Shown here piece by piece: positions 18,206-24,911 of a DNA stretch of 47,769 nucleotides. The stretch comes from an uncultured Lachnospiraceae bacterium (GTDB taxonomy: Bacteria; Bacillota; Clostridia; Lachnospirales; Lachnospiraceae). Every line of letters starts with the position of its first letter. Position 1 is the stretch's first letter. Location of the stretch: positions 1 to 47,769 of the forward strand of contig CAOKQK010000017.1 of assembly GCA_948470905.1 (NCBI GenBank). Reading direction: 5' to 3'. Both the position numbers and the translations under genes were made by a program. The notes beneath the pieces were generated by a model that saw nothing but the letters and a program-made list of their open reading frames with translations, was not told where the DNA came from and searched no databases.

Positions 18206-18559
18206 TCATGCTCCCTGAAGCTGTTTCAGCGCTTCCACTGTCCTCACGTATTCCGCCCTGACAACTTCTATATAGCCCTCATCCGCAGGCGCAGTCCCGT
18301 CCCGGAGCATCTCCGTCATTTCCGAGCCTGCCTCCTGAAGCCTGGTAAAGCCCAGGTTGGCGGCAACGCCCTTCAGGGTGTGCGCCGCCCGGAAAGCCTC
18401 CTCATAATTCTTTTCCTGAAGCTCCTTTTCCAGCGTCTCAAAGCTTGTATCATTCAGAAACTTCAGCGCAAATCTCTCCATCAGCTTTTCGTTGACCAGA
18501 CGCTTGCTCGCCCCTGCGTAATCGGCTCCCAGCGTCTCATAGCACTCCTTCAGTGTCAT
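18206..18559 (-). CDS. Stand-alone HPt phosphotransfer protein
   Basis: A 117-aa four-helix histidine phosphotransfer domain: AHTLKGVAANLGF carries the phospho-accepting His60, the standard HxLKG pattern. Such proteins shuttle phosphate between receiver domains in multi-step phosphorelays. GGAGG lies six bases before the ATG at 18559. No kinase or response regulator is in the window, so this is an orphan whose partners are elsewhere. The leader carries a copy of the three-member hairpin family (18596-18659), and the 3' end runs into the 37-bp tandem array. Confidence 0.88.
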   Translation of the reverse strand: MTLKECYETLGADYAGASKRLVNEKLMERFALKFLNDTSFETLEKELQEKNYEEAFRAAHTLKGVAANLGFTRLQEAGSEMTEMLRDGTAPADEGYIEVVRAEYVRTVEALKQLQGA

Positions 18560-18595
18560 AATATACCTCCTATTCCAGTTCCGTTTCTTCTCTCC

Positions 18596-18659
18596 AGCCC
18601 CCTTGCGGAGGAGCAATTTTCATCTGCACGGTACACATCCGAAAATTCTCCCGGGGGCT
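18596..18659 (-). repeat. Conserved hairpin element, copy 1 (HPt leader)
   Basis: Outer arms AGCCCCC (18596-18602) and GGGGGCT (18653-18659), inner GGAG/CTCC, then AATTTTC/GAAAATT toward a loop of about 20 bases. Read on the minus strand it is about 37 bases upstream of the HPt ATG. An unpaired ...CAA segment interrupts only the 3' arm, just before the GGGGGC. Related copies lie at 21784 and 23202. Confidence 0.75.
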
Positions 18660-18673
18660 GCCAATCGCCTTGT

Positions 18674-19258
18674 TTATCGCAAAAGAGAGGTTATATCTTC
18701 TGTAATATGCACATTTCTGCCGCTGAGTATCTCCCACACCGGCTTTTCGGTATGCTCTCCCGCAAAATACTTCCTTGCACAGGCCATAGCCATCTGTACG
18801 TCCTGTTTTTTCTCCATTACGTCATAGGCCTGGTCATAGATACTCATATCAAACCTTTGCGAATCCTCCTCCAGCATAACCTCAAACAAATGAATCCTGC
18901 TCTGTATCTCCTGCGGCTCCTCCCCCCAGTCATACTCATACAGACGTTTTACGTTTTCCAAATCATCATAAAAGAAATTGCACCCCAAACGGCTTATCGC
19001 CCCGGGGAATTCTGTTCTCCTGATAAATTCAAACACACCCTCTGTGGACCATTTGACGTAATCAGCCCATTCCCACAAGCCCGACTTCCTCAACACCGCA
19101 TAGGTATACTTTCCGTTGAGAACCATTCCGTAAAAACAGTCAAGGCTGTGCTCCAACGCCTGGACAAACGGTTCAACAAAATTAATAAGCTCCTGATGAT
19201 CCACCTCCAGAGTATCTCCAAGCCGGAGCGTTTCGCTCATATGATACGCCTTAATCAT
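18674..19258 (-). CDS. Hypothetical 194-aa protein
   Basis: I do not recognise this with confidence. It is soluble, acidic and rich in aromatic residues, opening MIKAYHMSETLRLGDTLE, a Y-H-x-S...L..G pattern that recalls the start of DUF2441-type or ADP-ribosyltransferase-like proteins, but I cannot confirm that. The middle (GMVLNGKYTYAVLRKSGLW) and the C-terminal helical part (DQAYDVMEKKQDVQMAMACA) have no known motif. GAGGAG lies upstream of the ATG. It is followed by the hairpin copy 1 and HPt, so it may share their transcript. Confidence 0.65.
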   Translation of the reverse strand: MIKAYHMSETLRLGDTLEVDHQELINFVEPFVQALEHSLDCFYGMVLNGKYTYAVLRKSGLWEWADYVKWSTEGVFEFIRRTEFPGAISRLGCNFFYDDLENVKRLYEYDWGEEPQEIQSRIHLFEVMLEEDSQRFDMSIYDQAYDVMEKKQDVQMAMACARKYFAGEHTEKPVWEILSGRNVHITEDITSLLR

Positions 19259-19300
19259 ACTTTTCTCCTCATCTGCATCATGTTCACAGCCCCTATTCCA

Positions 19301-19465
19301 TCATGGCTGCTGCGCTGTGATAGTCTGTATCTCCTCGCGGAATATCAGATGATTCAAGTCATTGGCTGCCTTAAACAGCAGCACATCCCTGCCGCCTGTA
19401 AGGACATTATACCTGGAATGCCCTGCTTTTTCAATACTTTTAATTTCCTGATCCGGCTTTGTCAA
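19301..19465 (-). CDS. Possible 54-aa small protein after TrmL
   Basis: A short frame beginning with TTG that overlaps the TrmL stop (TTGA), ending in a TGA at 19301-19303. The translation, TKPDQEIKSIEKAGHSRYNV onward to FREEIQTITAQQP, has protein-like composition, and it fills an otherwise empty gap. The TTG start lacks a well-spaced ribosome binding site, so it depends on coupling to TrmL. It could equally be the degraded end of a lost gene. Confidence 0.3.
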   Translation of the reverse strand: MTKPDQEIKSIEKAGHSRYNVLTGGRDVLLFKAANDLNHLIFREEIQTITAQQP

Positions 19466-19959
19466 TGCCCTTTCCACTGGAGCCTGTGAAGCTCTCCCTC
19501 TCTCTGCAGCCCGCAGAAACCGTTCTGCCGCAGGGCTTCATACAAGACGACGGCGACGGAATTCGACAGATTCAGGGAACGGATATCCGGGGACATGGGA
19601 ATCCTGATGCAGCCCTCCTCATGCTCTGTCAAGATTTCTTCCGGGATACCGGCGCTCTCCTTTCCGAACATGATGTAATCCCCCGTCCCAAATTCCGCTT
19701 CCGTATATAGTTTCTTTGCCTTCGTGGTGGCAAACCATATCCTCGCGCCTGAATTTTTCTCCTGAAAATCTTCAAAATTTATGTACCTGTGTACATCCAG
19801 GTCTTTCCAGTAATCCATCCCTGCCCGGCGGATTGCCTTTTCATCCAGCCGGAAGCCCAGGGGCTCGATCAAGTGGAGGGACGTACCTGTCGCAACACAG
19901 GTACGCCCGATATTTCCGGTATTGCCGGGAATCTCCGGCTGGTGTAACACGATATGCAT
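19462..19959 (-). CDS. trmL: tRNA (cytidine(34)-2'-O)-methyltransferase
   Basis: A SPOUT-fold enzyme that methylates the ribose of the wobble base (C34 or cmnm5U34) in leucine tRNAs using SAM. Family signatures are clear: MHIVLHQPEIPGNTGNIGRT at the N-terminus, LIEPLGFRLDEKAIRRAGMD, then FGKESAGIPEEIL and the knot region RIPMSPDIRSLNLSNSVAVV. The 165-aa length is normal. AAGGGG precedes the ATG at 19959. It is a housekeeping gene, separated from the upstream aminotransferase gene by a short tandem array. Confidence 0.93.
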   Translation of the reverse strand: MHIVLHQPEIPGNTGNIGRTCVATGTSLHLIEPLGFRLDEKAIRRAGMDYWKDLDVHRYINFEDFQEKNSGARIWFATTKAKKLYTEAEFGTGDYIMFGKESAGIPEEILTEHEEGCIRIPMSPDIRSLNLSNSVAVVLYEALRQNGFCGLQREGELHRLQWKGH

Positions 19960-19982
19960 TCTGATGCCCCTTCCGTATTTTC

Positions 19983-20094
19983 CCGAGCGCGGCGCCGCCT
20001 GCTCTTTTCCGTCCTCCCCGAGCGCGGTGCCCGCTCTTTTCCGTCCTTCCCAGCGCGGCGCTGCCTGCTCTTTTCCGTCCCTCCGAGAGCGGCG
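19983..20094. repeat. Tandem repeat of ~33 bp, about 3.3 copies
   Basis: Units open with CCGAGCGCGG, CCGAGCGCGG and CCAGCGCGG at 19983, 20018 and 20050, and each contains GCTCTTTTCCGTCC. Lengths are 35, 32 and 33 bases. A degenerate fourth start (CCGAGAGCGGCG) runs up to the stop codon of the aminotransferase gene. Sequence differs from the 37-bp array at 18033. Confidence 0.8.
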
Positions 20095-20095
20095 A

Positions 20096-21265
20096 TTACC
20101 TGCCGTTTCTCAGCTTCGTGACAAAGCGCTCCAGTCTGCTGACCGCCTCTTTTAAATGTTCCAGGGAATAGGCATATGAAATCCTCAAAAAGCCTTCCCC
20201 ACAGTCCCCGAAAGCAGTGCCCGGCACAACTGCCACCTTCTCCTCCTCCAGAAATCTGCCAGCAAACTCGTCGCTGGTCATACCGAACTCCTTAATGCAC
20301 GGAAACACATAAAAAGCGCCGTAAGGCTCAAAACATTCCAGCCCCATCTCCTGAAAGGCATTCATCAGGAAACGCCTTCTCTGGTTATATGCGGTACGCA
20401 TCTCGGCAATGTCATCGTCCCCGTTTTTCAAGGCTTCTATAGCCGCATACTGGCTGGTGGTAGGCGCACACATAATAGCAAACTGATGGATCTTGGTCAT
20501 CTGCTTAATGATCTCCGCAGGTCCGCAGGCATAGCCCAGACGCCAGCCGGTCATGGCATATGCCTTGGAAAAGCCGTTGATCAGGATCGTCCTCTCCTTC
20601 ATACCGGGAAGCTCCGCAATTGACACATGCTTTCCCTTGTATGTAAGCTCGGAATAAATTTCATCCGACATGACAAATATGTCATGTTCAAGGATAACCT
20701 CCGCAATCTCCTCCAGATCCTTCCGTTCCATAATTGCGCCGGTAGGATTGTTGGGAAACGGCAGGATCAGTATCTTGGTCTTGTCCGTTATGGCTTCCTC
20801 CAGCTCTGCAGCCGTCAGGCGGAACTCGTTTTCCGCCTTTAAGTTAATGATTACAGGTGTCGCTCCCGCAAGAATGGCACAGGGTTCGTAGGAAACATAG
20901 CTGGGCTGGGGGATCAGCACCTCGTCTCCGGGATTGATCACGGCACGCAGCCCCATGTCAATCGCCTCGGAACCGCCCACAGTGATCAGCACCTCCGTCA
21001 GAGGATCATAGGTAAGCCCCTGCTTCCTGTATAGTGTATTGCATATCTCCTGACGCAGCTCCTTTAATCCGGCGTTGGAGGTGTAAATCGTCCGTCCCTG
21101 CTCCAGGGAGTAGATACCCTCATCCCGTATATGCCAGGGAGTGTCAAAATCAGGCTCACCCACCCCCAGGGAGATAGCGTCCTTCATCTCATGTACAATG
21201 TCAAAGAACTTACGGATGCCTGAAGGCTTCAGTTCCACAACTTTATCTGCTAAAGGATTCCTCAT
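20096..21265 (-). CDS. Pyridoxal-phosphate aminotransferase, class I/II
   Basis: A 389-aa fold-type I aminotransferase of the AspB/PatA type. LSLG-type N-terminal features appear as ISLGVGEPDFDTPWHIRD; the PLP-binding lysine lies in NGFSKAYAMTGWRLGYA near residue 232, preceded by the NNPTG motif and SDEIYSEL. The carboxylate-binding Arg is in FLRISYAYS near the end. Substrate is likely an aromatic or branched/neutral amino acid or aspartate. The ATG overlaps the Lrp gene stop by four bases (ATGA), so the regulator and enzyme are coupled, a common clostridial pair. Confidence 0.92.
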   Translation of the reverse strand: MRNPLADKVVELKPSGIRKFFDIVHEMKDAISLGVGEPDFDTPWHIRDEGIYSLEQGRTIYTSNAGLKELRQEICNTLYRKQGLTYDPLTEVLITVGGSEAIDMGLRAVINPGDEVLIPQPSYVSYEPCAILAGATPVIINLKAENEFRLTAAELEEAITDKTKILILPFPNNPTGAIMERKDLEEIAEVILEHDIFVMSDEIYSELTYKGKHVSIAELPGMKERTILINGFSKAYAMTGWRLGYACGPAEIIKQMTKIHQFAIMCAPTTSQYAAIEALKNGDDDIAEMRTAYNQRRRFLMNAFQEMGLECFEPYGAFYVFPCIKEFGMTSDEFAGRFLEEEKVAVVPGTAFGDCGEGFLRISYAYSLEHLKEAVSRLERFVTKLRNGR

Positions 21266-21744
21266 GGCGTGATCATCTCCCTTTCGTCTTCTTTTTTCTG
21301 GGACAGCACAGTGCCATGATCCTTATACTTTCTGAGGATAAAGTGGGTTGCCGTGCTGAGCACCTGCTCCAGGGTGGAGAGCTTGTCGGACACGAACGCG
21401 GAAACCTCCCGCAGGCTCCTGCCTTCCAGGATGACCATCAGATCATAGCCTCCGGAAATCAGATACACACTATTCACTTCGGGATATCTCTGAATGCGCT
21501 CCGCAACATTGCCAAATCCATGCCCCCTCTGAGGCGTGACACGCACCTCGATCAGCGCCGTCACCTTGTCAATGTTCGTCTTCTCCCAGTTGATGAGGGT
21601 ATGATAGCCGCAGATAATGCCCTCTGCTTCTAGTGCCGCCATCTCGTTCACCACATCAATTTCCTGCACTCCCAGGATGATCGCCAGCTCCTTTAAATCA
21701 ATCCTGCTGTTCTTTTCTATGATTGCCAGTAATTCCTCTCTCAT
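21262..21744 (-). CDS. Lrp/AsnC family transcriptional regulator
   Basis: A 160-aa feast/famine regulator. The N-terminal helix-turn-helix covers residues ~5-60 (LLAIIEKNSRIDLKELAIIL, then EIDVVNEMAALEAEGII); the C-terminal RAM/AsnC ligand-binding domain follows, with VTALIEVRVTPQRGHGF and VYLISGGYDLMVILEGRSL. It should sense an amino acid and probably controls its own operon with the downstream aminotransferase. GGAGG lies seven bases before the ATG, and the 5' leader holds hairpin copy 2. Confidence 0.92.
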   Translation of the reverse strand: MREELLAIIEKNSRIDLKELAIILGVQEIDVVNEMAALEAEGIICGYHTLINWEKTNIDKVTALIEVRVTPQRGHGFGNVAERIQRYPEVNSVYLISGGYDLMVILEGRSLREVSAFVSDKLSTLEQVLSTATHFILRKYKDHGTVLSQKKEDEREMITP

Positions 21745-21783
21745 TTTAATACCTCCTGATTAAAGTATCGCCTCTCCGCTTCT

Positions 21784-21850
21784 ACGCCCCCTTGGCTGGA
21801 AGGGATTTTCAGCGGTTCACACCACCTCTGAAAATTCCTTCCGGGGGCGT
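21784..21850 (-). repeat. Conserved hairpin element, copy 2 (Lrp leader)
   Basis: Outer arms ACGCCCCC (21784-21791) and GGGGGCGT (21843-21850). The inner stem is GGAAGG/CCTTCC where the other copies have GGAG/CTCC or GGGAG/CTCCC, so pairing is kept while sequence changes. Next comes ATTTTCAG/CTGAAAAT. The asymmetric segment AGCCAA interrupts the 3' arm on the minus strand. It starts about 40 bases upstream of the Lrp ATG. Confidence 0.78.
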
Positions 21851-21967
21851 CTTACATTTCGAGGCTGTTTTTTAATTCCTCTGTGACATTAATTCAAAAT
21901 TTGGGGAGTTTAAATCCAAATTTACTTTTTTATTGGGTTGCCCAGAAACTATTCGCAAATACATTTA

Positions 21968-23083
21968 TCAGCCACTGCCGCCCCATATGCTGTCGCTCTG
22001 GGGTCTGTCCAGATAACGGATCTCGCCATCATTGACCAGGATCCGGTCATTGCCGTCCGTCACCTTGCCCACCACAGCCGCAGGTATCTGCTGCGCCGCC
22101 AGTGCCGCCGCCAGTGCCGCCCCATCCTCCGTCGTCATCAACAGGCTCCCCCCTGACAAAAGCAGATAGGGATTAACGTTGCAGCACTCACACACCTCCA
22201 CCGTCTCCTGGCGCAGAGGCAGCTTCTTCATATCTATTGTCAGTCCAACGCCCGCGCCCTCTGCAAGCTCCCAGAGCGCACCGAAAATACCGCCCTCGGA
22301 CACATCCCGCATGGCACAAACGCCGGACTTCATGGCGGTCGCCGCCTCCGGAAGGATAGACTGATAGCGGTCAAAGGCTGCTGCCTCATCCACGAAATAC
22401 GCCGGGTACCTGGCAAGCAGCTTTTCCCTGTAGCGCTTCGCCAGATACGCCGTCCCCTGCAGCCCTATCCACTTGCTGACTACCACGTCCTGCCCAGGCA
22501 TCGCCGTCCTCACGACATGGCCAGTGCCAGACAGCTTTCCGAGACATGTCACCGTCGCAACCGGACATGTCACCGCAGCGCTGACCCTCGTCTGCCCTCC
22601 TGCTATCTCCAGGGAAAGCTCGCCGCACTTTTCCTCCGCCTCCCGCATCAGGTCCCTGAGCTCCGCCTCCTCCACAGTTTCCGGCAGAAGCAGCGCGATG
22701 AGTGCCGCCGCAGGCTCCGCCCCGCCTGCCGCCAGGTTGTTGGCGCATTTCTGCACCAACTGTCCCATGGTCATAAACGGTTCCGGACAGGGCACAGCCC
22801 TGTCTGCACCCTGCCGATGCGCTGCTGTTGTACTGCTGTCGTCCTGCGCTATGCCCTGCCTCCCGTCACTATCCCGCCACACCGCCTGCTGCCTGCTGTC
22901 GCCTGCCTGCACTCTCACCGCCGCCTCCTGAACGCAGACAGCGGAAAACACTCCCTTGGAAAACGAGAAAATGGCGCAGTCTTCCCCTATACCTGCGCCA
23001 CGCACCACTTCTTCCCTCCTGGTTTTTATTTCTCTCAAAACAGAGCGTTTTAAACAAACCTCTGACACTTTTCCAAGCTTCAT
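21968..23083 (-). CDS. AIR synthase-related protein (HypE/PurM-like fold)
   Basis: A 371-aa ATP-dependent PurM-like enzyme of uncertain reaction. Recognisable parts: GIGEDCAIFSF near residue 30 (ATP/Mg-binding Asp), TMGQLVQKCANNLAAGGAEP, EKCGELSLEIAGGQTRVS, and in the C-terminal half MRDVSEGGIFGALWELAEG and LLLSGGSLLMT, which match AIRS_C. Between residues ~50 and ~100 there is a polar, low-complexity insertion (SRQQAVWRDSDGRQGIAQDD region) absent from typical relatives. I start at the ATG at 23083, which has GGGAG five bases upstream; earlier frames run through tandem palindromes. Relatives include hydrogenase maturation HypE, but no hydrogenase genes are nearby. Confidence 0.8.
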   Translation of the reverse strand: MKLGKVSEVCLKRSVLREIKTRREEVVRGAGIGEDCAIFSFSKGVFSAVCVQEAAVRVQAGDSRQQAVWRDSDGRQGIAQDDSSTTAAHRQGADRAVPCPEPFMTMGQLVQKCANNLAAGGAEPAAALIALLLPETVEEAELRDLMREAEEKCGELSLEIAGGQTRVSAAVTCPVATVTCLGKLSGTGHVVRTAMPGQDVVVSKWIGLQGTAYLAKRYREKLLARYPAYFVDEAAAFDRYQSILPEAATAMKSGVCAMRDVSEGGIFGALWELAEGAGVGLTIDMKKLPLRQETVEVCECCNVNPYLLLSGGSLLMTTEDGAALAAALAAQQIPAAVVGKVTDGNDRILVNDGEIRYLDRPQSDSIWGGSG

Positions 23084-23146
23084 CCCAGCTCCCATCTGCC
23101 TGCTCTGACAGGCATCCATATCAGGATTGTGAAATATCTTTTCCCC

Positions 23147-23190
23147 GTTCCCGCTTGCGGGAACTTTTCCGCTTGCGGGAACTTTTCCGC
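23147..23190. repeat. 18-bp palindromic tandem repeat
   Basis: GTTCCCGCTTGCGGGAAC (23147-23164) is self-complementary, and is followed directly by TTTTCCGCTTGCGGGAAC (23165-23182) and a partial third unit. It sits in the leader of the AIR-synthase-like gene, 64 bases before its ATG. It could form alternative hairpins. Confidence 0.75.
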
Positions 23191-23201
23191 CTCTGCACTC
23201 C

Positions 23202-23267
23202 AACGCCCCTTAACCGGGAGCTTTTTTCAGCTGCAAGGAACGCATCTGAAAATTCTCCCGGGGCGTT
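23202..23267 (-). repeat. Conserved hairpin element, copy 3
   Basis: Outer arms AACGCCCC (23202-23209) and GGGGCGTT (23260-23267), inner GGGAG/CTCCC, then TTTTTCAG/CTGAAAA toward the loop. The 3' arm on the minus strand is interrupted by GGTTAA. Sequence just past it on that strand (GGAGTGCAGAGGCGGA) resembles that after copy 2 (GAAGCGGAGAGGCGA). It lies upstream of the AIR-synthase-like gene. Confidence 0.78.
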
Positions 23268-23333
23268 TCCGTTTGGAGGTTGTTTAACCTTTTATTGTTT
23301 TGCATTTCAGCTTTCCAAATCCGGCATCAGCGG

Positions 23334-24911
23334 TCACTCCACAATTACTTCATCGGCAGGGTCCGGAACTGATGCCGCCTCCGATGAGGACGACGGAGAC
23401 GACCCCGGCGAAGCCAGCGGTGCCTGTAATGTTTCCGGCGAAAGCGGTACTTCCGAAGACGGTGCCGCCTGCACTGCCGTCAGCCTGGCGACCACTTCCT
23501 TCACATGGCTCAAGCTGCCCGTACCAATAGCTGCCATAATCTCATTGTATGCAGCAAGGTCCGTTGTAGCCGTTCCCACCGTAACGCTTCTTGGCACCAT
23601 TATGTAATTACTGCTGTTGACCTGCGTACGGCTGACCTCCCTGCCATCCTCCAGCACTACCTTCCACAGCCTTGCCCTGTAACCCACATGAGCCCCGCTG
23701 TCGGTGGCAATGTACCCGATGGGCCTGGTGTTGTCCGCATGAATGTCATCGGCCGACGGCTTGATGGTCTCCACAACCTCGCTCTCATAGCGCACCTCCC
23801 GACCTTCGGCTCTTGTTTCCCTGCCGTAAATATTAAAAGTTACCTTGTTATTCTCCGTATAGCCTTCTATGTATATCGGATACTCCAGATCATTTATAAA
23901 TCTGAAGTCCTTGCCGGAGCCCTCCGCAATCGCCGCGTCCGCGGAAACATCCACGTAAGACACCGTCATGGAATGGCTGCAGCGCATGGTCACATTTAAT
24001 TCCGCCAAAAGCACCGCATTATAAAGGGTGGTGGAAACCTGGCAGATCCCTCCGCCCAGGCTGTCTACTACCTTGCCGTTCAGATAAGAACCCGCCTTAT
24101 AATATCCGTTTTCCTGAGTAAAGGGCGCCGTCTTCCCATAAACAGATATCTCCTCTCCCGGATAAAGGGTGATACCATCCAGCATCTGACAGCCATTCCT
24201 TATATTTGCCTTTCTATCGGCAGTAGAGCCCGCAAACGATGTGGTGAAGCTGCCCAGGATATCCCTGACCTGCGACAGCTCCTCCCGGCTGCCCCTTGCC
24301 TCCTGCACCTCCACGGCCAGTTCAATGACACAAGGCTGATAATCCCAAGCCCCTGTCAGATAATCATTGATCCTGTCGATGGACATCTCCACATCCAATG
24401 CATAGCCGCTGTGTCCCTCCACAATCCGGAACTCGCCGTTCTCACGCACCAGGGACATATTCACCGGCTCCATGTCATATCCGGCACACTCAGATGTCAA
24501 AAAATCACTGATAGCCTGCCTGTCAAAAGAAAGCCTGATGGGCAGCACCAGGTTCCTTCGCTCCAGATCCTTGAGCTGTTTGTAGCGCTCAATGACATTA
24601 CCCCTGGTTCCCACCTCCAGCGCCTCCGTTACAAGTTCCGGATTCGCCCACGCGATCCCCAGTTCGCCCACAGTCACATCCACCCGGCTGCCCGCGCCTG
24701 CCAGAAGTGTCACCGACGTATCCTTCAAACCATCCACAAAGTCCTCAACCGCCCTGAGCGCTTCCTCCTTTGTCATGCCGGACAGATTCACGCTGCCTGC
24801 GTAAATGCCCGATCTGATAGTCTTTTCTCCCTTCGCCTGCACTGCCATGCCCATAGACAGCACACACAGCAGCAGGGCGCAGATACGTCCCATCCACAAT
24901 ATTCTTTTCAT
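23334..24911 (-). CDS. VanW family cell-wall protein with PG-binding domain
   Basis: A 525-aa exported, probably cell-wall-associated protein. A signal peptide or anchor is at residues 1-28 (MKRILWMGRICALLLCVLSM). A putative peptidoglycan-binding domain (about 35-195, with GIYAGSVNLSGMTKEEA) precedes the VanW domain (about 215-345), marked by GGGICQVSTTLYNAVLLAEL near residue 284 and YPIYIEGY. The last ~50 residues are a Pro/Ser/Ala-rich low-complexity tail. AGAGGTG precedes the ATG at 24911. VanW occurs in some vancomycin clusters, but this is the common chromosomal YoaR-like type, whose role in the wall is not established. Confidence 0.9.
   Translation of the reverse strand: MKRILWMGRICALLLCVLSMGMAVQAKGEKTIRSGIYAGSVNLSGMTKEEALRAVEDFVDGLKDTSVTLLAGAGSRVDVTVGELGIAWANPELVTEALEVGTRGNVIERYKQLKDLERRNLVLPIRLSFDRQAISDFLTSECAGYDMEPVNMSLVRENGEFRIVEGHSGYALDVEMSIDRINDYLTGAWDYQPCVIELAVEVQEARGSREELSQVRDILGSFTTSFAGSTADRKANIRNGCQMLDGITLYPGEEISVYGKTAPFTQENGYYKAGSYLNGKVVDSLGGGICQVSTTLYNAVLLAELNVTMRCSHSMTVSYVDVSADAAIAEGSGKDFRFINDLEYPIYIEGYTENNKVTFNIYGRETRAEGREVRYESEVVETIKPSADDIHADNTRPIGYIATDSGAHVGYRARLWKVVLEDGREVSRTQVNSSNYIMVPRSVTVGTATTDLAAYNEIMAAIGTGSLSHVKEVVARLTAVQAAPSSEVPLSPETLQAPLASPGSSPSSSSEAASVPDPADEVIVE

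Follow-up and report, generated by a model that had tools for sequence, protein, structure and literature searches.

The window analysed here is the whole 47,769-nt stretch of contig CAOKQK010000017.1 (assembly GCA_948470905.1) from an uncultured Lachnospiraceae bacterium, and it carries on its minus strand three copies of a hairpin repeat, each lying upstream of a gene. The three hairpins had been placed there by a first-pass annotation of the sequence and all are present; alignment of the three copies with their best relatives showed that the complete unit extends beyond the core it had described. Copy 1 (18579..18675, minus strand) scored 61.8 bits with R1, a covariance model built from 33 copies and a hand-drawn 29-pair structure, and was also recognised by alignment and fold. 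It starts at the stop codon of an open reading frame (ORF) of 194 aa and has lost the 5' half of its outer stem; its tail, CTGGAAT-AGGAGG, ends in a Shine-Dalgarno (SD) sequence (AGGAGG, 18566..18571, minus strand; from the sequence and SD comparison) just before the start at 18559 of an Hpt-domain gene (18206..18559, minus strand; Pfam PF01627, E 2.4e-14). Copy 2 (21766..21867, minus strand; R1 88.5 bits), of the GGAAGG/CCTTCC subtype, also ends in AGGAGG (21752..21757, minus strand, from the sequence) and leads an Lrp/AsnC-type regulator gene with its start at 21744 (21262..21744, minus strand; PF01037, E 2.3e-17). Copy 3 (23185..23282, minus strand; R1 94.7 bits) has an AIR-synthase-related gene on its 3' side (21968..23083, minus strand; PF02769/PF00586, match given from 23080; start offset 101). 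The three domain assignments made earlier all lie above the Pfam cut-offs. The earlier statement that the hairpins sit ahead of gene starts is accurate and tight for copies 1 and 2, whereas copy 3 is about 100 nt away from where the AIR-synthase-like gene likely starts. This exception to tight docking has a degenerate tail and is followed by two small hairpins before the gene, namely an accessory hairpin of type GTTCCCGCAAGCGGGAAC (23147..23164, minus strand; pattern search and sequence) and a second, imperfect one between it and copy 3. The stretch 23147-23184 represents a second palindrome family, GTTCCC-N6-GGGAAC, which often stands between the big hairpin and the SD and whose closing pairs vary yet remain complementary. 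Upstream, copy 3 adjoins the gene of a VanW-like protein with peptidoglycan-binding and G5 domains (23334-24893, minus strand).

The repeat begins with CAG, with an A-rich stretch in front, and continues into an outermost stem (GCCTC/GAGGC) and an internal loop; this stem explains the conserved bases that had been noticed beyond the hairpin. The second stem, CGCCCC/GGGGCG, is followed on the 3' side by an asymmetric bulge of about 5-8 nt, so that the unpaired segment ending in AA, described earlier for the 3' arm only, is a real feature of the fold. The third stem is GGGAGAATTTTCAG/CTGAAAATTnCTCCC in one subtype, and a short apical stem follows an A-G mismatch. The 3' end is an unpaired GGAACTnnAAT tail, and the whole leader, including the A-rich start, the three-part hairpin, the tail and the SD, spans about 110 nt. 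RNA folding against 200 dinucleotide shuffles gave z-scores of -1.8, -6.4 and -4.2 for copies 1, 2 and 3, so copy 1 is weak by energy alone. Ahead of copy 2 (about 21868-21895, minus strand) and of a few other copies in the same genome there is a short 5' extension resembling AATGTCAcAGAGGAAtTtAAAA, and similar extensions precede some copies in other species. A TGTCAATAG-like 5' extension was not enriched, being found within two mismatches at 6 of 124 copies and in 45 of 1080 control windows.

In the genome from which the window comes (the source genome; 3.7 Mb, about 90% complete, 157 contigs), a DNA search found 45 matches. The covariance-model search that the first-pass annotation had proposed was run with R1, and yielded 139 matches in this genome at E <= 0.1, no two of them overlapping, as well as matches in congeners; as scoring covered just 150 of the 1953 first-look candidates, 139 may be a lower bound. 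One 99-nt copy occurs in identical form at two loci (C12 and C27). Among 61 genomes, R1 matched nine, which are the source genome and 8 of 36 congeners; seven of these congeners carry 3-38 matches each, and the eighth, G018, has a single weak match (E 0.001). None of the 24 genomes from other families of the order matched at E <= 0.01, and against the 45 and 139 matches in the source genome this indicates that the hairpin family is not a product of chance. In a wider Lachnospiraceae sample, 4 of 200 genomes (4 of 199 genera) matched, the source genome included, which leaves 3 of 198 other genera.

The exact core pattern was found in 15 stretches of named genomes, two of which belong to Acetatifactor muris DSM 23669, and the remaining ones to metagenome-assembled genomes (MAGs) titled Acetatifactor, Lachnospiraceae, Oscillospiraceae, Clostridiaceae or bacterium. 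Over the stretches compared, congeners G019 and G026 each have an identical counterpart among these MAGs, and the counterpart of G026 is titled Acetatifactor, so the genus of the source genome and its congeners is probably Acetatifactor, judging from these sequence matches. The cultured species A. muris has 31 model matches, opposite-strand echoes included, and nine copies are clustered within about 22 kb of one of its contigs (G067:C50, 57-80 kb). Two other genomes, those of L196 (G065) and L192 (G066), are 80-92% identical where aligned and have 2 and 29 model matches, respectively, again with opposite-strand echoes, which suggests fast expansion or loss. A further subfamily with the stem GAGAGAAACTTTCAT/ATGAAAGTTTCTCTC and an outer stem of its own occupies a similar pre-SD position at L219, L226, L234 and L236. 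The window gave no Rfam match at gathering scores, and in a permissive scan around copy 1 the only sub-threshold match scored 12.7 bits against 57. No match was found among viral contigs (one exact core pattern) or among plasmids and phages (one 121-base copy as query, E <= 0.001), and searches of the open-access full-text literature, as distinct from subscription papers and preprints, turned up no account of the hairpin family.

The covariation that had been claimed from three copies proved strong across many. We realigned 144 matches (139 distinct; 113 from the source genome and 26 from congeners), and 91.8% of the cells formed standard pairs, compared with 82.2% in shuffles and at most 55.2% with the partner slid; two-sided changes were present at 27 of the 29 pairs. 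The slid-partner control and a tree-based null were applied because the structure had been drawn by hand from one copy and a model-based alignment is biased towards its structure. In the tree-based null (134 rows, 99 columns, 60 null alignments), five column pairs were significant at E <= 0.05, all five within helices 2 and 3 of the proposed structure and none outside it, and the other 24 of the 29 pairs were individually non-significant; the covariation thus survives this control. The RNAalifold consensus of the first alignment contained only 9 pairs, probably because MAFFT misaligned the two subtypes. On the sense strand, G-U cells numbered 102 and A-C cells 59, an excess that favours folding of the sense strand without proving RNA. 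At one locus, A. muris and ABMPRH_260_1 each retain a copy, and these have diverged in sequence and have like folds. The structural constraint likely acts on RNA rather than on single-stranded DNA.

The position of the repeat relative to genes was analysed for 128 of the 139 copies in the source genome, with gene calls from a codon-usage script and start calls from a loose SD test under which some doubtful ORFs pass. None of the 128 copies lies inside a called gene, and a few overlap the end of the upstream gene by at most about 50 nt. The next called gene is in sense for 118 copies, antisense for 4 and absent for 6, and three of the four apparent antisense cases have an SD-preceded sense ORF. 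Both neighbours are in sense at 94 copies, and no copy lies between convergent called genes. By the loose test, 121 of the 128 copies are followed by an SD-preceded sense ORF (>=60 aa, <=450 nt). The start lies 15-24 nt past the core in 46 of the 103 distinct downstream ORFs and 36-44 nt past it in 27; a small palindrome stands between core and start in 20 of the 27 far-spaced ORFs and in none of the 46 near-spaced ones. In a pattern search, the GTTCCCGCAAGCGGGAAC type of small palindrome occurred at 52 places in the genome, and its reversed control at none. An analogous GTCGCGCAGCGAC hairpin occupies a similar slot in other species. Of the 22 distinct genes behind copies in congeners, 18 have an SD and a start 17-40 nt past the core; another copy or module lies ahead of three of the four exceptions, and the remaining one is the doubtful match in G018. 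In other genera the start lies 19-25 nt past the core at 5 of the 7 loci shown. Ten of the 103 downstream ORFs, chosen by eye, are the housekeeping genes infA, glmS, ileS, rnc, guaB, rpsR, asnS, aroC, pyrF and purB. In this gut commensal, genes of translation and core metabolism have come to carry the hairpin repeat as their leader.

We then compared genes with the element, defined by a start within 260 nt behind a copy, with the other genes. The results showed that TAGGAG preceded 40 of 86 genes with the element and 3 of 225 genes without it (Fisher p 8e-23), AGGAGG 50 of 86 and 31 of 225 (p 2e-14), and AATAGGAG 27 of 86 and 1 of 225, respectively. When 95 copies were anchored on an SD with a start codon behind it, the SD columns were conserved by construction and only the flanking columns were informative: the 14 columns before the SD carried 0.24-0.97 bits (mean 0.46), and the 14 after it 0.07-0.33 bits (mean 0.19). 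We also took orthologues from three congeners without model matches (30 loci among the many matches listed, with starts placed in 26 and 4 dropped, representing 11 genes), and found TAGGAG at 1 of 26 and AGGAGG at 5 of 26; in the source genome, 7 of the 11 genes compared have TAGGAG. Since the strong SD is rare in element-free orthologues, it seemingly did not pre-exist. The predicted openness of the start codon was 0.56 for 66 genes with the element and 0.46 for 150 others (p 0.01), and the ribosome site is predicted by folding not to be hidden by the hairpin. Taken with the rarity of TAGGAG in element-free genes, these orthologue data suggest that the repeat brings its own SD and seems to act as a portable translation-initiation leader. 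Two other ways of arriving next to an SD were considered and dropped. Insertion between a native SD and the start codon predicted a left-over SD upstream, which was not enriched (5 of 44 non-tandem copies, 39 of 352 control windows), and a target preference for pre-existing AGGAGG sites was unsupported by the orthologues, with ancestral states assumed.

The positions of the repeat are patchy and lineage-specific, so its sequence distribution points to spread. In the genus sample, which includes the source genome, 40 of 41 genomes have the Lrp gene, and the repeat stands at the Lrp locus of the source genome only (1 of 30 loci; no comparable match in 29 congeners, one weak at E 0.054). Of 22 distinct genes behind copies elsewhere, one has a close match (80% identical) and one a distant match (31%) behind a copy in the source genome, in a comparison that covered about 15% of that genome and was biased to copies. 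Some copy loci are nevertheless common to close species despite this poor retention overall, and in close species pairs some copies are common and others differ. Seventeen tandem junctions were found in the source genome on the one strand searched, an array with a period of 107 occurs in G014, and neighbouring matches up to 160 nt apart run head-to-tail. Neither the flanks nor the species comparisons contained a clean target-site duplication, and gain or loss was ambiguous in those comparisons. The L192/L196 pair had been considered as an insertion with AGGAG duplicated; this was dropped, as a linker followed by a GAGTC-type element start can yield the same letters. Y1_Tnp transposases, the one transposase family searched for, were not associated with the repeat (4 of 9 genomes with matches and 9 of 32 others in the 41-genome genus sample). 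The sole Y1-type match in the source genome is IS200-like and has an in-frame TGA (L045, G000:C39:32019-32375).

These results show a structured repeat in sense orientation at a preferred distance from the start codon, with an SD that differs from those of element-free genes and orthologues. The first-pass annotation had taken the hairpins for either a structured RNA motif not yet described or a mobile hairpin whose structure is constrained, and this is supported by the covariation and by dispersed, largely lineage-specific positions. Neither of the outcomes that it had named as refuting came about: the covariation is significant, the copies are tightly tied to gene starts and no target duplication was recognised. 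The copy number, the sense orientation and the running of the repeat into the SD go beyond that view. We put at about 0.55 the probability that the dispersed repeat of about 110 nt is the complete 5' leader and translation-initiation region of roughly a hundred genes. The repeat would be copied into the 5' leaders of further genes so that its 3' end joins at the SD, and homology or microhomology at AGGAGG would set orientation and spacing; such docking may be best explained by exchange at the SD because the SD is common to most gene starts and fixes both strand and spacing. It would then persist as a harmless or useful sequence. A stable hairpin before an open SD could block 5' exonuclease attack and so stabilise the mRNA, and could insulate the ribosome site by keeping upstream RNA from pairing with the SD region. 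By analogy with other Firmicutes, the most likely role of the repeat would be to form a 5' barrier, stabilising the mRNA and insulating the ribosome site, and the effect would be strongest at the 94 copies between same-strand genes. A TATAAT-like hexamer (5 or 6 of 6 bases) ends 13-53 nt before 13 of the 19 copies with a divergent upstream gene, a count given without a background control. More tentatively, and at somewhat less than even odds, the repeat may be a mobile ribosome-binding-site leader whose cargo is the translation-initiation region and whose docking site is the SD, which takes the place of native leaders at essential genes and needs no transposase of its own to spread. If so, this would be natural leader replacement at about 100 genes of one genome, for which A. 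muris would offer a test bed, and it would raise the questions of whether 5' leader swaps rewire expression and whether SDs serve as landing sites for repeats.

Several observations weigh against the reading of the repeat as a spreading translation-initiation leader. An SD-like motif lies between copies at just 3 of the 17 tandem junctions, so the SD is usually not copied along inside arrays, and insertion just upstream of an existing SD fits better than a strictly SD-carrying unit. Predicted SD accessibility was 0.576 in the 66 genes with the element and 0.515 in the 150 others, which is non-significant (p 0.20). The 26 orthologues represent 11 genes from three related genomes and are hence non-independent. 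Helix 1 is without any single significant pair in the tree-based null, and an excess of G-U over A-C of just 102 to 59 is obtainable from single-stranded DNA too. No insertion event was caught, and between A. muris and ABMPRH_260_1 the emptier allele often retains an element tail or fragment, so that several differences may be losses, with gain and loss indistinguishable.

The strongest of the other explanations, which we nevertheless regard as unlikely, is a selfish hairpin, REP- or MITE-like, that a transposase moves as single-stranded DNA, with the hairpin as recognition site and the pre-start position reflecting target choice or tolerated insertions. High copy number, tandem arrays such as that of period 107 in G014, patchy distribution, the identical 99-nt copies at two loci and a conserved apical part with A-G mismatches would all suit such an element. 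It sits poorly, however, with the lack of association with Y1 transposases, whose copy in the source genome has an in-frame stop (other transposase families were not searched for), with the lack of a recognised target duplication and with a sense orientation foreign to REP and MITE families, and it leaves the SD result unexplained. Less likely still is a cis-element read in trans, in which the apical hairpin would be recognised by an RNA-binding protein or ligand that governs a large regulon. The apical sequence and its mismatches are conserved, with compensatory change elsewhere, there is a preferred distance to the start, and orthologous copies at one locus diverge in sequence and keep their fold; but the gene set is mostly not kept (1 of 30 Lrp loci and one close match among 22 genes, with about 15% of the source genome compared), the SD is not predicted to be sequestered, and the downstream genes are mixed. 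Tests for a riboswitch or regulon leader likewise came out negative: the repeat is mostly not kept before orthologues, some loci shared by close species apart, and has no Rfam match at gathering scores.

It is improbable that the repeat is a terminator or insulator for the opposite direction, where the other strand would present a hairpin followed by a GGCTGTTTTTT-like sequence and stop antisense or read-through transcription. Many copies do have an A-rich 5' flank before the CAG; the A run is often three or four bases only, the window copies were not reported by the terminator scan (which takes loops of 3-8 only and is blind to the outer stem), and docking at the SD would have no reason. An integron attC site is unlikely because the copies lie among housekeeping genes. 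The AT-richness and terminal inverted repeats of a MITE were not seen either: the GC fraction ranges from 0.42 to 0.66 across the 144 matches and the termini share short CAG/CTG ends only.

The aprE leader is an example of a stabilising 5' leader in Bacillus. In Bacillus subtilis, mRNA can be stabilised by a hairpin or by a ribosome site close to its 5' end, which fits 5' attack by RNase J1 (PMC3997798); these stabilising leaders belong to single genes and are not a repeat family as here (PMC3997798). At the sequence level the repeat combines a hairpin with an SD, which would suit such a leader if the hairpin lay near the 5' end of the transcript.

Among dispersed repeats, the repetitive extragenic palindromes (REPs) and their BIME arrangements resemble the hairpin repeat in high copy number, hairpin structure, arrays and intergenic location, often between same-strand genes (PMC3733652). 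According to the sections of that source available, REPs differ in being 20-40 bp long, carrying a GTAG or CGTC tag and forming head-head, tail-tail or head-tail pairs, with the GTAG class linked to the transposase RAYT, and the phyla it names there for REP families do not include Firmicutes (PMC3733652). By eye, GTAG follows helix 2 in many copies of the source genome, is missing in many copies of other species and does not lie at the palindrome foot. Membership of the RAYT-associated REPs was rejected, as there is no foot tetranucleotide, no Y1 association and no head-head or tail-tail pair (junctions searched on one strand), and a RAYT origin is unsupported, with one IS200-like Y1_Tnp carrying an in-frame stop in the source genome. 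The BOX, RUP and SPRITE repeats of Streptococcus pneumoniae are likewise structured, Firmicute and co-transcribed, with tandem modules in BOX, but in the portion of the source available they are enriched downstream of coding sequences and have no tie to the SD (PMC3049150). Placement of the BOX/RUP type was rejected for the hairpin repeat, given the 94 of 128 copies between same-strand called genes and none between convergent ones.

The closest match in position that was found comes from marine Beggiatoaceae, whose TAACTGA direct repeats are mostly forward, lie directly before start codons and have a proposed translational role (PMC4679880). They are dispersed, forward and pre-start like the hairpin repeat; they differ, however, in being heptamers with little SD character, an SD occurring in about 10% of their intergenic regions, whereas the hairpin repeat is about 100 nt long and ends in a strong SD (PMC4679880). 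The dispersed bacterial hairpin repeats compared here are not tied to ribosome-binding sites, whereas the hairpin family of this Lachnospiraceae genome is.

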